DNA from: Stenotrophomonas sp. BIO128-Bstrain | GTDB taxonomy: Bacteria; Pseudomonadota; Gammaproteobacteria; Xanthomonadales; Xanthomonadaceae | Assembly (NCBI RefSeq): GCF_030128875.1 | Contig: NZ_CP124620.1 | Location: 3,162,001-3,226,000 of the forward strand | Reading direction: 5' to 3' | Length of the DNA: 64,000 bases | Shown: positions 27,817 through 32,496 of the stretch, one piece after another | Numbering within the stretch: position 1 is the stretch's first letter | Layout of the letters: each line of letters starts with the position of its first letter | Program-made: the position numbers and the translations under genes | Notes under the pieces: model-generated | The model's input: the letters and a program-made list of their open reading frames with translations, nothing else | The model's database searches: none | Told to the model about the DNA's origin: nothing

Positions 27817-27840
27817 GCGTCACCGGTGTGGATATCGTAA

Positions 27841-27867
27841 GGCCAGCGTTCGCGCTGGCCTTTTTTT
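27841..27867 (+). terminator. Intrinsic terminator after the ribokinase
   Basis: An 8-bp stem GGCCAGCG with a TTCG tetraloop followed by seven T residues, a textbook rho-independent terminator. AA just 5' pairs with the first T residues. Confidence 0.95.
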
Positions 27868-28197
27868 GTTCTGCTCCATCTGGGTGAAATCAAGAAGCGC
27901 CCTCTGAGCCTTTCCGGGCGAGGCCTCGAGTAGGTCGAGCGCTGGGGCGCGATGCCCTTGCCGGCGAATGTCCCCCGGCGTCGGCCTGCGGCCGCCCCCT
28001 CCTCCTTTATTTCGCCCACAAGGGCATCGCGCCCCACGTGTCCAGACCACTTGCGCTGCATGGAAAGCACGGCTTCTCTTCTGCCTACCGCGAGCCGGAG
28101 CGCCGTAGCGGCCGGTAGGCCCCTGGGCAAAATCAAGGAGGAGGTCGTCGCTGTGAGGCGGCGGCCGGGGGACATTTGCCGAGGGGCCTACCGGTCG
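27868..28197. other. Non-coding interval with two structured cassettes
   Basis: This 330-base interval between the ribokinase terminator and the PAP2 gene holds no convincing gene. It contains two oppositely oriented stem-loop cassettes (27943-28036 and 28103-28203). A short stretch at 27880-27896 (TGGGTGAAATCAAGAAG) resembles the first bases of their core and may be a remnant of a third copy. Confidence 0.7.
27943..28036 (-). repeat. Stem-loop cassette B (minus orientation)
   Basis: A perfect 17-bp stem (left arm 27943-27959, right arm 28020-28036) closes a 60-base core. Read on the minus strand the core starts TGGGCGAAATAAAGGAGGAG and ends CGGGGGACATTCGCC. GGCGAA near its start can pair with TTCGCC near its end, an inner stem. 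It contains a Shine-Dalgarno-like AAGGAGG. It may be a structured RNA, a REP-like repeat, or both. Confidence 0.65.
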
Positions 28198-28839: not shown

Positions 28840-28915
28840 GCGCGCACCGTAGCAGAACGTGGCAAGCGTGTTTGCCGCTATCCTTGCGCTTTCGCGGATA
28901 CCGGGACTGTACGCA

Positions 28916-29773
28916 GTGGCAGCAGCAGGCAGTCAGCAACACGCACGTACGCACGCGGACACACCGCGCTGGACGCGCAATCCGGCCTGGGCCCTGTTTT
29001 CGCAGACCCATGCGCAGCGCCCGCTGCTGCTGGTGTCCGGTGGCGCCGACGAATTGTATGTGGTCGACGAGGCCGATACCCCGACGGTCATCGAACGCAT
29101 CCTCGGCCATTGGCAGGACGACACACTGACGCTTCTGCAGGACGATGCCGACTGTGGCCCGGCGGTCCGCCAGTTGATGCGCCTCGGCGTACTGGTGCCG
29201 TCGCAGGCGGCGCGCCCTGTGCGCCGCTATGCACTGGATTGGCTCGGGGAACCGCTGCCTGGGCTGGCCGAGGCCTTCGACCAGCATGCTGGTGCGGACC
29301 TGCAGCGCGTCGATGCCGCCGCCGATGCCGATCTCCTCGTGCTGGTCCGCCACGGGCTCGGCTGGGAACAGGCCTTGGCCCGCTACGTGTCACATATGCC
29401 GGTACAGCCGCATCTGCTGCTGGACCTCAGCTATCACCACACCCTCGCGCTTGGACCCTATGTGGTGCCCGGCCAGACTGCCTGTGTGTATTGCCTGGGC
29501 AACCGCGTACTGCGCCGCTGGGGCGAAGCGGTGGTGCCGGCGCTGCCGGAAGTCGCAGCGCAACCGGCACGGATCGCGGCGCTGGTCGCGCCGTTGCTGG
29601 ATCAGCCGCACCTGTTGCTGGGCTATCTCGAACGCAGCGTCTGGCTCGACCTGCATCGCCTGCATGGGGAACGCGACCGGGTGCTGCGGCTGCCGTGGTG
29701 CCCCGCCTGCCAGGGCGGTGAGATGTCGATGCCTGCACCGCTGCCGCTGCCTTGGGACACCGGGCGCCCGTGA
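28916..29773 (+). CDS. TOMM partner (C/E1-like) protein with predicted leader-binding domain
   Basis: About 285 residues. Residues 35-98 (RPLLLVSGGADELYVVDEAD ... QLMRLGVLVP) have the strand-strand-helix-helix-helix pattern of the RiPP recognition element (PqqD-like) found at the start of TOMM C proteins. The rest is a degenerate E1/ThiF-like domain with two Cys-x-x-Cys pairs, PGQTACVYCL (190/193) and WCPACQ (262/265), which bind zinc in this family. It would present the precursor to the YcaO enzyme. Start uncertain: GTG 28916 leaves room for promoters against the divergent PAP2 gene; GTG 28859 is the longest alternative. First gene of the cluster. Confidence 0.8.
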   Translation: MAAAGSQQHARTHADTPRWTRNPAWALFSQTHAQRPLLLVSGGADELYVVDEADTPTVIERILGHWQDDTLTLLQDDADCGPAVRQLMRLGVLVPSQAARPVRRYALDWLGEPLPGLAEAFDQHAGADLQRVDAAADADLLVLVRHGLGWEQALARYVSHMPVQPHLLLDLSYHHTLALGPYVVPGQTACVYCLGNRVLRRWGEAVVPALPEVAAQPARIAALVAPLLDQPHLLLGYLERSVWLDLHRLHGERDRVLRLPWCPACQGGEMSMPAPLPLPWDTGRP

Positions 29774-29822
29774 TAATGTGGGGCGTGCGCCGGGCGTTTC
29801 CGCCTCGGTCAACGGAGTGACC

Positions 29823-30401
29823 ATGTATCGCCTGCCGACCCAGTTCGATGCCAGTGCCTCGCGCCAGGACCTTGCCGCGGCAGGTGGCGGCTCGACATCG
29901 ACTACCTGCAGTTCCTGCGTCGTCACCCTGCTCGGCACCTCGGTACTGTCGGCAGTGGTGCTGGGCAAGCTGGAACCCGTCGCGCCCGCCGCCATCAGCA
30001 GCGCCGCAGACATCCCCCCCGTCACCGTCGATACCCCCACCGAGCGCCACGGCCAGCCACCTGCGTTGCCGCAGGAACCGCCCAGTGCCGTCACTCCCGA
30101 TCACCCGGCGGCACCGGCACCGGTGATGCCGGCAACCGGCCTGAGCCGCACCAGCCGGATACTGCTGGGGCTGTTCGCCTTGCCGCTGGCCGCGATCGGC
30201 GGCGGCATTTTCATCAGCACCTCCAACCCGATATTCGGGCTGTTCGTCGCCGTCGGGCTGTATCTCGGCATTTATGCCTTGGTCTACGAGCGCGCGGGGC
30301 GTTCGCTCGGGCGCGGCATCGGCATCGCCATCGGGCTGCTGCTGGGCCTGTTCGCCGTGGGCGCGCTCGAGATGATGCTCTGGCTGAGCGTGATGAAATG
30401 A
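29823..30401 (+). CDS. Membrane protein with N-terminal Ser/Thr/Cys core, probable TOMM substrate
   Basis: 192 residues. Layout: a 23-residue N-terminal segment (MYRLPTQFDASASRQDLAAA, then GGG at 21-23), nine consecutive heterocyclisable residues STSTTCSSC at 24-32, a hydrophobic stretch at 33-48, a Pro/Ala-rich linker at about 51-110, and three predicted membrane helices at about 113-131, 137-154 and 164-189. SD GGAG precedes ATG 29823. It lies between the C-protein and YcaO genes and its stop overlaps the YcaO start. I infer that residues 1-23 act as leader and 24-32 as core. No database family was checked. Confidence 0.7.
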   Translation: MYRLPTQFDASASRQDLAAAGGGSTSTTCSSCVVTLLGTSVLSAVVLGKLEPVAPAAISSAADIPPVTVDTPTERHGQPPALPQEPPSAVTPDHPAAPAPVMPATGLSRTSRILLGLFALPLAAIGGGIFISTSNPIFGLFVAVGLYLGIYALVYERAGRSLGRGIGIAIGLLLGLFAVGALEMMLWLSVMK

Positions 30402-31735
30402 GCCGCGCCGCCGTGCAGGCGGCAGAGCCGGATATGCCCACGCTGTCTTCGCACCTGCTGCATGGCGCAGCGCGTCCGCGCTGTGGCCTGGTGCGCCCGG
30501 CCCAACCGATCGAGGCCAACCCGTGCGATGCAACCGGCCCCTTGTTCGAGGGACGGCGCGTACACAATGCCGCCACGCCGGCCGACCCGGCCAATCCCTG
30601 GCAGGGCGTCTCGGGCGCGGTTGCGCTGGAAGCCGCTGCGGCCGCCGACGGCGCGGTCGCCGAGGCGCTGGAGCGGCTGGCGGCGGCGCAGGCGAGCCTG
30701 GAAGTGCGTCGTCGCGATGCGCTGACGCCCACACAACGTCTGGACGAATCGGCATTCGCGCTGTTCTCGGCGAGCCAACGCGCCATGCCGGACTTTCCGT
30801 GGCCGATGCCCGAGCGCGACGAGGACCTGTTCGCAGCGGTGCATGCGCTGGACGACAACCGGGTCGCTTGGGTGCCGCAAGAGCTGGTTGGACTGGGGCC
30901 GCGCAGCGGCCAGGCGCGATTGCCATCGACGTCCAGTGGTCTGGCGGCCTGGCGGGATGGGCGCGATGGCGCCTGGCTGGCGCTGTTGCGCGCGGCCCAG
31001 GAGCTGCTGGAGCGCGATGCGCTGGCAGTGACATGGCTCAATGGCGTGGCCGGCCGGCGAATCGCGCTGCCGGCGCAATGGCACGCCCATGTGGACGCGC
31101 GCGGTGGTGAACTGCAGGCGTTCGACCTGACCCAGCACTGGAATCCGCACCCGGTCATCGCGGTCGCCGGTGGCATTCCCTTCGAAGGCCGCCCCCGCTA
31201 CGTCCTCGGCATCGCCTGCCGTGCCGATCCGGGCGAGGCACTGCACAAGGCGCTGCTGGAATGGCAGCAGGCACTGACCTTTGCCGCGCATCTGTGTGGC
31301 CGCGAAAGCGCCCGGCTGCCTCGTGAACCCGCAGCGCTGCGCAGCTTCGACGAGCATGCCGCCTTCTACACCCTGCGCCCGGAGCTGTGGCCGCAGCTGC
31401 CGCTGCTGCGGGAGGCGGGCCGCAGCACGTTGCAGTTGCCCCCACCCGGCGCAGCGGATCGCCCGGCCGCGCCGCGCGCGATGGGCGAGCTGGATCAGCT
31501 GCGGCGCCGGCTGGGCCGTGCCGGCATCGCGCTGTACTACCGCGAGTTGACCACCGCCGATGTGGCCGCGGCTGGCCTGCGGGTGATGCGGGTGTTGTCG
31601 CCACAGCTCAGCGGTCTGCATGCCGACGAACGTGCGCCGTTCCTTGGTGGCCGCTGCCGCGACGTGGCATGGCGCTATCCCGGCGTGCCGCACGGCGGCG
31701 CGTTTCCCAACCCCTTCCCGCATCCATTGGGCTGA
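30398..31735 (+). CDS. YcaO-domain cyclodehydratase
   Basis: 445 residues. YcaO enzymes use ATP to turn Cys/Ser/Thr side chains into thiazolines or oxazolines. Visible motifs: GAVALEAAAAADGAVAEALERL at 73-94 (Glu89, Glu92 and Arg93 fit the ATP-Mg site pattern ExxER, with Ala where Ser is usual), STSSGLAAW and AAQELLERDALAVTW at 177-213 (ELLERDA), and the C-terminus FPNPFPHPLG, which has the PxPxP motif of TOMM YcaO proteins. The start overlaps the putative substrate gene (ATGA), implying coupled translation. SagB-like gene follows after 14 bases. Confidence 0.88.
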   Translation: MSRAAVQAAEPDMPTLSSHLLHGAARPRCGLVRPAQPIEANPCDATGPLFEGRRVHNAATPADPANPWQGVSGAVALEAAAAADGAVAEALERLAAAQASLEVRRRDALTPTQRLDESAFALFSASQRAMPDFPWPMPERDEDLFAAVHALDDNRVAWVPQELVGLGPRSGQARLPSTSSGLAAWRDGRDGAWLALLRAAQELLERDALAVTWLNGVAGRRIALPAQWHAHVDARGGELQAFDLTQHWNPHPVIAVAGGIPFEGRPRYVLGIACRADPGEALHKALLEWQQALTFAAHLCGRESARLPREPAALRSFDEHAAFYTLRPELWPQLPLLREAGRSTLQLPPPGAADRPAAPRAMGELDQLRRRLGRAGIALYYRELTTADVAAAGLRVMRVLSPQLSGLHADERAPFLGGRCRDVAWRYPGVPHGGAFPNPFPHPLG

Positions 31736-31749
31736 TCCCCGAGGACCGC

Positions 31750-32496
31750 ATGCCGTCACCGCCTTCCCCCTGGGACGATGCCCCGCTGTTCCATCTGTTC
31801 TGGCACAACGGCGAGCTCAATCCCGCGCGCGCAGACGTGATGCGCGCGCGCATCGCCGAAGATGCCGCACGCGCCTGGTCGCCGCCACGGCCGTTGCATG
31901 CAGCAGCCGGCGTCGCCTTGCCGGACCCGGTACGCCCCGGCGATGCCCTCGCGCAGCGCCGCAGTGGCCGCCGTTTCGGTGATGCACAGTGGGGCGCGCA
32001 GGAACTGGGGCGCGTGCTGGCCCCGCTGCGGGCCCGGCCCGGCGACAGTGACACGCGGCGTCTGCCGTCCGGTGGGGCCAAGTACCCGATCCAGGCCTAT
32101 GCCGCGCTGTACGGCATCGACGATGCGATCGCATCAGCGCCGGGCATCCATTGGTACGACCCGCTCGAGCACGCGCTGGTACCGGTGGGGCCCTGCCCCG
32201 CATGGCCGGCGCTGTCCGGGCTGCTGGGCGTGGACTGGCCGGAGCGGCCGGCGGCCGTGCTGTTCCTGATCGCCGAGCCAGGTGGGACGCTGGCCAAATA
32301 CGGCGAGCGCGGCGGCCGCTTCGTGTTGATCGAGGCTGGAGTCTGGCTGGGGGCGCTGGGGCAGCAGGTGGCGTCGATGAACGCCGCCGGCTGCGCGATC
32401 GGCTCGTTCGACGACGCCGCCCTCCTGGCCCTGCTCGGGCTCGACCCGCAGCGGCATCTGGCGGTGTTGGCCTATGCGTGCGGTCCGGTGCCCTGA
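31750..32496 (+). CDS. SagB-like nitroreductase-family dehydrogenase
   Basis: 248 residues of the SagB/ThcOx group, FMN enzymes that oxidise azolines to azoles in TOMM pathways. Motifs: LAQRRSGRRFGDAQW at 67-81 (FMN-phosphate arginines), RLPSGGAKYPIQAYAAL at 104-120, and YGERGGRFVLIEAGVWLG near 184-201, with AAGCAIGSFDD in the C-terminal part. SD GAGG precedes ATG 31750; longer in-frame sequence lies inside ycaO and is rejected. Last gene of the four-gene cluster. Confidence 0.9.
   Translation: MPSPPSPWDDAPLFHLFWHNGELNPARADVMRARIAEDAARAWSPPRPLHAAAGVALPDPVRPGDALAQRRSGRRFGDAQWGAQELGRVLAPLRARPGDSDTRRLPSGGAKYPIQAYAALYGIDDAIASAPGIHWYDPLEHALVPVGPCPAWPALSGLLGVDWPERPAAVLFLIAEPGGTLAKYGERGGRFVLIEAGVWLGALGQQVASMNAAGCAIGSFDDAALLALLGLDPQRHLAVLAYACGPVP

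Follow-up and report, generated by a model that had tools for sequence, protein, structure and literature searches.

The stretch of DNA analysed here, called the window, comprises 64,000 nt of contig NZ_CP124620.1 from Stenotrophomonas sp. BIO128-Bstrain, and coordinates count from its start. It contains a gene cassette predicted to carry out azole formation of the kind that makes thiazole/oxazole-modified microcins (TOMMs). As an earlier note on this DNA had described, four genes form one run on the plus strand, encoding an E1-like C protein, a membrane protein (MP), a YcaO cyclodehydratase (D protein) and a SagB-type dehydrogenase (B protein), with a gap of 49, an overlap of 4 and a gap of 14 bases between them. 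A fifth gene, for a PAP2-family protein, stands divergently upstream. The cassette is real and conserved, and it is larger than first noted, with a predicted membrane-protein substrate and a PAP2 partner. The source genome, a single contig of 4.49 Mb, gives one YcaO match. For C, the GTG at 28916 is assumed as the start, the alternative being the GTG at 28859.

Table 1 Cassette genes and predicted parts of MP in the window
Feature	Position	Strand	Remarks
PAP2-family lipid-phosphatase-like membrane protein, 213 aa	28198-28839	-	fifth cassette member, divergent from C
C protein (E1-like leader-binding partner)	28916-29773	+	N-terminal region like a RiPP recognition element (RRE), two zinc-type CxxC pairs
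Membrane protein (MP), 192 aa, predicted substrate	29823-30401	+	leader, Ser/Thr/Cys core, hydrophobic segment, Pro-rich linker, 3 membrane helices (predicted)
MP predicted leader, residues 1-23 (MYRLPxQFD...AAGGG)	29823-29891	+	from column entropy
MP predicted heterocyclised core, residues 24-32, STSTTCSSC	29892-29918	+	Ser/Thr/Cys-only columns
YcaO cyclodehydratase (D protein), 445 aa	30398-31735	+	PxPxP-type C-terminus, PF02624, TIGR03604
SagB-type flavin mononucleotide (FMN) dehydrogenase (B protein), 248 aa	31750-32496	+	TIGR03605, PF00881, invariant KYGERGGRF

By sequence, the cluster holds the components of a TOMM or linear azol(in)e-containing peptide (LAP) locus, namely an E1-like C protein with a YcaO D protein, a SagB-type FMN dehydrogenase, which is optional, and a candidate precursor with leader and Ser/Thr/Cys core. 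The earlier note had proposed TOMM-specific models as a check on C and YcaO. Both match clearly, and both, like the SagB-like protein, stay below NCBI's curated cut-offs: YcaO against TIGR03604 (E 3.4e-38, 131.5 bits; cut-off 219.25), C against TIGR03882 (E 1.4e-7, 31.9 bits; cut-off 36.9) and SagB-like against TIGR03605 (E 1.4e-17, 63.7 bits; cut-off 78.4). Because three cut-offs are not reached despite clear matches, we place the cassette on a divergent TOMM branch. YcaO also matches the Pfam YcaO family PF02624 (E 2e-29, 103.4 bits), and SagB-like matches PF00881 above its cut-off (36.9 bits). Among relatives, TIGR03604 matches 29/29 D proteins at E 1e-3 and TIGR03882 matches 15/15 C proteins at E 1e-2. 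The two CxxC pairs that had been seen in C are indeed there and are invariant across 15/15 aligned C proteins; likewise the PxPxP tail of YcaO, which ends in PNPFPHPLG, keeps its terminal PHPLG in 29/29 aligned sequences. KYGERGGRF of the SagB-type protein is invariant among 18 aligned. Judged from these profile scores, the match of the synthetase to TOMM models is not chance.

The predicted structure of C (m57580b3202d8) finds TruD, LynD, MusD and a McbBCD chain as best matches, where Foldseek alignments to TruD and LynD run over about 270 columns at TM-scores of only 0.30-0.35. The VIA alignments of C cover mainly residues 100-268. In the AlphaFold2 (AF2) model the N-terminal region of C has strands at 19-49, helices at 56-90 and a strand at 93-95, the order expected for an RRE-type domain. 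Protein Data Bank (PDB) profile matches of YcaO are MJ1094, MusD, TruD, McbD and LynD, and those of SagB-like include CyaGox and McbC. Incidentally, C of a Variovorax metagenome-assembled genome (MAG) lacks most of the N-terminal domain (L015, 7375-7983), by either a deletion or an assembly fault. More remote YcaO relatives (P0185-P0221), 39-53% identical and one of them from a Patescibacteria MAG, keep the PHPLG end where aligned, and their substrates may be other membrane proteins.

The first protein search for MP found 101 homologues, and the profile search listed 104, nine of them new; all 110 retrieved proteins were aligned. In another search, which gave 7/101 MP matches, one match, G077 (E 8.5e-5, C-terminal part only), was taken as chance. 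Copies seen are 151 to 288 aa long. The N-terminus begins with MYRLPxQFD, continues through a variable stretch to AAGGG, and then runs into STSTTCSSC. Mean column entropy is 0.50 at residues 1-9, 1.6 at 10-17, 0.26 at 18-23 and 0.21 at 24-32, rising to 1.36 at 33-49 and 2.27 in the linker (50-108).

For counts on the core, five truncated or fragmentary sequences (P0055, P0059, P0228, P0229 and P0230) were dropped, leaving 106 including the window's. Across the nine core columns, Ser, Thr or Cys fills 954/954 cells. The core takes 12 forms, one of which, in two sequences, has a tenth residue, and substituted cells remain Ser/Thr/Cys in 36/36 cases. In control columns, other columns whose commonest residue is Ser, Thr or Cys, the corresponding figures are 145/862 in all 106 sequences and 61/453 in the 48 distant members. 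The control is quoted for the distant members because all 36 core substitutions fall there; the difference between core and control in that set has a Fisher p of about 1e-28, with cells that are not independent, and near-identical Stenotrophomonas sequences weigh heavily in the cell counts. At the codon level, comparing the nine core codons across 11 Stenotrophomonas loci (495 codon pairs) turns up 87 synonymous differences and 0 nonsynonymous ones; thus the constraint acts on the protein. Such a pattern would be expected if selection favoured side chains that can be heterocyclised and not any one residue.

An unmodified core could still be conserved if TTCSSC served as a metal or thiol site of the CxxC type, with the C, D and B proteins working for something else. 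C29 and C32 do form a CxxC pair, and C29 is invariant in 110/110 sequences, but C32 is Thr or Ser in 4/110, Cys is found at five other core positions, and MP is constantly linked to an azole synthetase, so that we consider this explanation highly improbable. It is also improbable, if less extremely so, that MP is an exporter or immunity membrane protein, the real precursor being a small unannotated open reading frame (ORF) or lying elsewhere. TOMM precursors are mostly short, and the accessible part of a survey reports an ORF of <150 aa within 10 kb of D in 46% of clusters (PMC4603692). A separate precursor would, however, leave unexplained why core substitutions are confined to Ser, Thr and Cys, and in one locus (L083) MP is duplicated in tandem, the two copies lying between C and D and having the cores STTTTCCCT and CTTTTCSCT. 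On sequence grounds MP is very likely the substrate of the synthetase, and we hold with high confidence that C, D and B act on it. The suggestion in the earlier note to seek modification on the small membrane protein appears to have been the right lead.

Retention of the four genes together in relatives, on which the earlier note had staked its reading, is observed: the order C-MP-D-B is kept in 15/15 related loci (L002-L016). The same 15/15 loci have PAP2 beside the cassette, as do L072 and L073 (tblastn of window neighbours) and three loci from YcaO-first searches, L081, L082 and L083; in L082 it follows B downstream, in the same orientation. Overall, PAP2 is present in 21/21 loci including the window, 20 divergent and 1 rearranged, and its identity is 41-60% in the seven loci outside Stenotrophomonas. 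The window's PAP2 scores 28.8 bits against PF14378 (cut-off 27), a model that matches 11/12 PAP2 proteins, and the motifs PSLH and STxxTxQHxLxD are invariant in 12/12 aligned. The Lys/Arg motif, the first motif of the PAP2 superfamily, is unrecognisable in the cassette proteins. By family model and predicted catalytic Ser/His/His/Asp motifs the protein fits the superfamily, and there is a strong likelihood that it acts in the same pathway as MP modification. Its simplest role, offered as a tentative guess, would be to protect or adjust those membrane lipid phosphates with which the polyazole comes into contact. BcrC offers a parallel: this PAP2 phosphatase protects against bacitracin, which is a thiazoline peptide and binds a lipid pyrophosphate.

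Library scans of the window identify the genes between 25526 and 34547 as nupC, pfkB, PAP2, the four cassette genes, dusB and a methyltransferase. None is a peptidase or ABC exporter, in agreement with the earlier note. Where it describes the flanks as core genes, it is right about dusB and pfkB and wrong about the immediate upstream neighbour, PAP2, a constant cassette member. Between pfkB and the cassette (27817-28197), intergenic inverted repeats are seen by eye, close to where the variable region borders on the flank.

The cassette YcaO branch occurs in 11/91 Stenotrophomonas genomes, in 4/268 genomes of the family of the Bordetella locus, in 3/399 of the family of the Variovorax locus, and in 2/398 of a phylum sample, the window's genome included. 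The Xanthomonadaceae, where comparison had been proposed, are therefore too narrow a scope, as records of Bordetella, Candidimonas, Aromatoleum, Variovorax and Verticiella also contain the cassette. A class sample gave 2/369, the window's genome and a distant YcaO (G369, L025). The latter was rejected as a cassette, its YcaO being 27% identical and its 3.2 kb having no MP by tblastn. By eye, L025 (G369 C258) is a distant C-YcaO-SagB run that has no MP inside it and probably represents a different TOMM branch with its precursor elsewhere. A second YcaO without tblastn similarity to cassette D was seen in an Aromatoleum genome that also holds the cassette (L026, G476 C14:190450-191457).

Between pfkB and dusB, the five cassette genes are missing in 14/14 YcaO-free Stenotrophomonas regions, PAP2 elsewhere in those genomes not having been searched. 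As the regions were chosen from genomes without a YcaO match, the new information is limited to the other four genes being absent. These regions keep nupC, pfkB and dusB, 12 with pfkB and dusB within 800 bases and 2 with about 3 kb of other sequence. The cassette is thus sporadic, and its five genes are present or absent jointly in the regions compared. Identities of the other four proteins track those of D, with correlations of 0.961-0.985 (153 pairs from 18 loci, without a core-gene control).

Neighbours were compared in the stored flanks of L002-L016 after removal of cassette ORFs, with L081-L083 left out. No further ORF of at least 50 aa is common to at least three of the seven non-Stenotrophomonas loci, which also argues against a separate precursor, flank ORFs of <50 aa not having been compared. 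Four neighbour matches are common to two such loci. In L010 and L011, two overlapping ORFs adjoin PAP2; an ABC-transporter ATPase lies 0.7 kb from the cassette in L012 and 5.8 kb in L011; and an enzyme-like ORF is common to L015 and L016. None occurs in three loci, and the ATPase distances are unlike. All four were read as chance neighbours. Two Stenotrophomonas loci, L005 (10791-11285) and L006 (10784-11203), have an additional ORF, small and hydrophobic, in the interval from B to dusB, for which the B-dusB gap of the window is too short.

In the AF2 model of MP (mean pLDDT 78.9), helices span 25-48, 109-133, 136-157 and 162-191, the last three being predicted membrane helices, and the linker is of low confidence. 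The linker is Pro-rich and acidic, and among the 48 distant members its middle part varies in length from 3 to 85 residues. Within the membrane part, Gly116, Gly165 and Trp187 are invariant and Glu183 nearly so among 36 aligned members, one of which (P0101) ends in an apparent out-of-frame tail. Positive charge sits just ahead of the second transmembrane helix (TM2) and in loop 3-4, which by the positive-inside rule, used here to read topology, suggests that TM2 enters from the cytoplasm.

We propose that the five-gene cassette makes a membrane-retained azole-modified protein that works with a PAP2 lipid phosphatase, a reading which as a whole we favour with moderate confidence. C would bind the conserved leader at the N-terminus of MP, YcaO would turn the nine contiguous Ser/Thr/Cys residues into azolines, and the SagB-type enzyme would oxidise azolines to azoles. 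The product would stay in the inner membrane with a rigid polyazole tip, a flexible Pro-rich tether and a three-helix anchor, and would act there together with PAP2. It seems somewhat probable that MP is not cut loose and works as a membrane-anchored polyazole on its tether. That the tip is SagA-like and never secreted, is paired with PAP2 at the inner membrane and has lipid phosphates as its likely target is a possibility toward which we do not quite lean. The missing exporter and protease would be less odd because the substrate itself is predicted to be an integral membrane protein.

Several points weigh against this reading. C, YcaO and SagB-type proteins of the window all score under NCBI's curated cut-offs, and the Pfam scan of window proteins assigns C to no family. 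PAP2 has no PDB relative by sequence, and the membrane part of MP has no convincing match among solved folds. AF2 places the core inside one helix (25-48), with a model ignorant of modification; if heterocyclised, residues 24-32 cannot belong to that helix. With TM2 entering from the cytoplasm, the core segment need not cross the membrane. AAGGG ahead of the core resembles a leader cleavage site, and five TldD/PmbA-type matches occur elsewhere in the genome. The TldD/PmbA-type matches comprise three in a row at C1:3768007-3771518 (L076) and a separate pair at 617-620 kb, and housekeeping leader proteolysis by them is possible. Because of the cleavage-like site and these matches, MP could be released without a local peptidase.

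Alternatively, MP could be a large precursor from which an ordinary azole peptide is released: housekeeping or intramembrane proteases would cut off the leader, the core and perhaps the first hydrophobic segment, and the three-helix part would be only an escort, anchor or self-protection domain. The GGG ahead of the core and the TldD/PmbA relatives would suit such release, as would the leader-core layout, which parallels that of streptolysin S (SLS)-like precursors (accessible part of PMC4513790). On the other hand, the 15 compared loci share no exporter or peptidase, the rest of the genome not having been searched for an exporter, and the invariant residues of the membrane part make it seem no throw-away tail. 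We rate release as rather unlikely.

Set beside known systems, the cassette shows both likenesses and differences. Like SLS-like TOMMs (SagABCD), it has separate C, YcaO and SagB proteins. According to the accessible part of PMC4513790, validated SLS cores begin with 9-10 contiguous heterocyclisable residues, proposed as defining, and residues 24-34 of SagA are the minimal active unit; MP similarly has a leader followed by nine such residues from position 24. Unlike SLS-like TOMMs, its predicted precursor is a membrane protein, its enzymes lie under the curated cut-offs, and PAP2 adjoins it instead of a SagE-type peptidase or SagGHI-type ABC transporter. Because adjoining peptidase and exporter are missing and MP is a membrane protein, we do not file the cassette as an SLS-like cytolysin.

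C, D and B are relatives of the microcin B17 (MccB17) synthetase McbBCD by structure and sequence. The MccB17 leader is removed by the housekeeping protease TldD/E. Unlike the present cassette, MccB17 has a short soluble precursor, a dedicated exporter (McbEF) and an immunity protein (McbG). YcaO proteins that act on full-length cellular proteins kept in service are described in the accessible parts of PMC5589413 and PMC13063428, for thioamidation of McrA and uL16. Those are thioamides on soluble targets, whereas here azoles are predicted, with C and SagB proteins and a leader-core logic.

The survey of Cox et al. 2015 covers nearly 1,500 TOMM clusters with precursors assumed to be <150 aa (PMC4603692, accessible part). 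Some of its groups also have a discrete cyclodehydratase with a B protein, but none of the group descriptions compared has a membrane-protein precursor. In its main text, as far as available, the words Stenotrophomonas, Xanthomonas, Bordetella, Achromobacter and 'membrane' have 0 occurrences. With 192 aa, MP exceeds this 150-aa bound and would be missed under it (PMC4603692, same part). Literature searches including the core and leader strings found no description of the cassette, most subscription papers and bioRxiv preprints being outside their coverage. The cassette thus appears to be a variant of TOMM biosynthesis with a predicted membrane-protein precursor, none such being described in the literature found.

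Beyond this comparison, the known products of azole synthetases are small peptides that are secreted, such as toxins and antibiotics. Here the conserved partner is predicted to be an integral membrane protein, whose core obeys the substitution rule expected for a heterocyclised segment. If the proposal is confirmed, it would explain a cluster without exporter or peptidase, and it would show why length-limited precursor mining can overlook such systems. The constant PAP2 partner would connect the cassette directly, and in a testable way, to membrane lipid phosphates. If true, azole chemistry would extend to membrane proteins, a new use of azole-ring building, and never-secreted azole proteins, probably targeting lipid phosphates, would form a class of their own.

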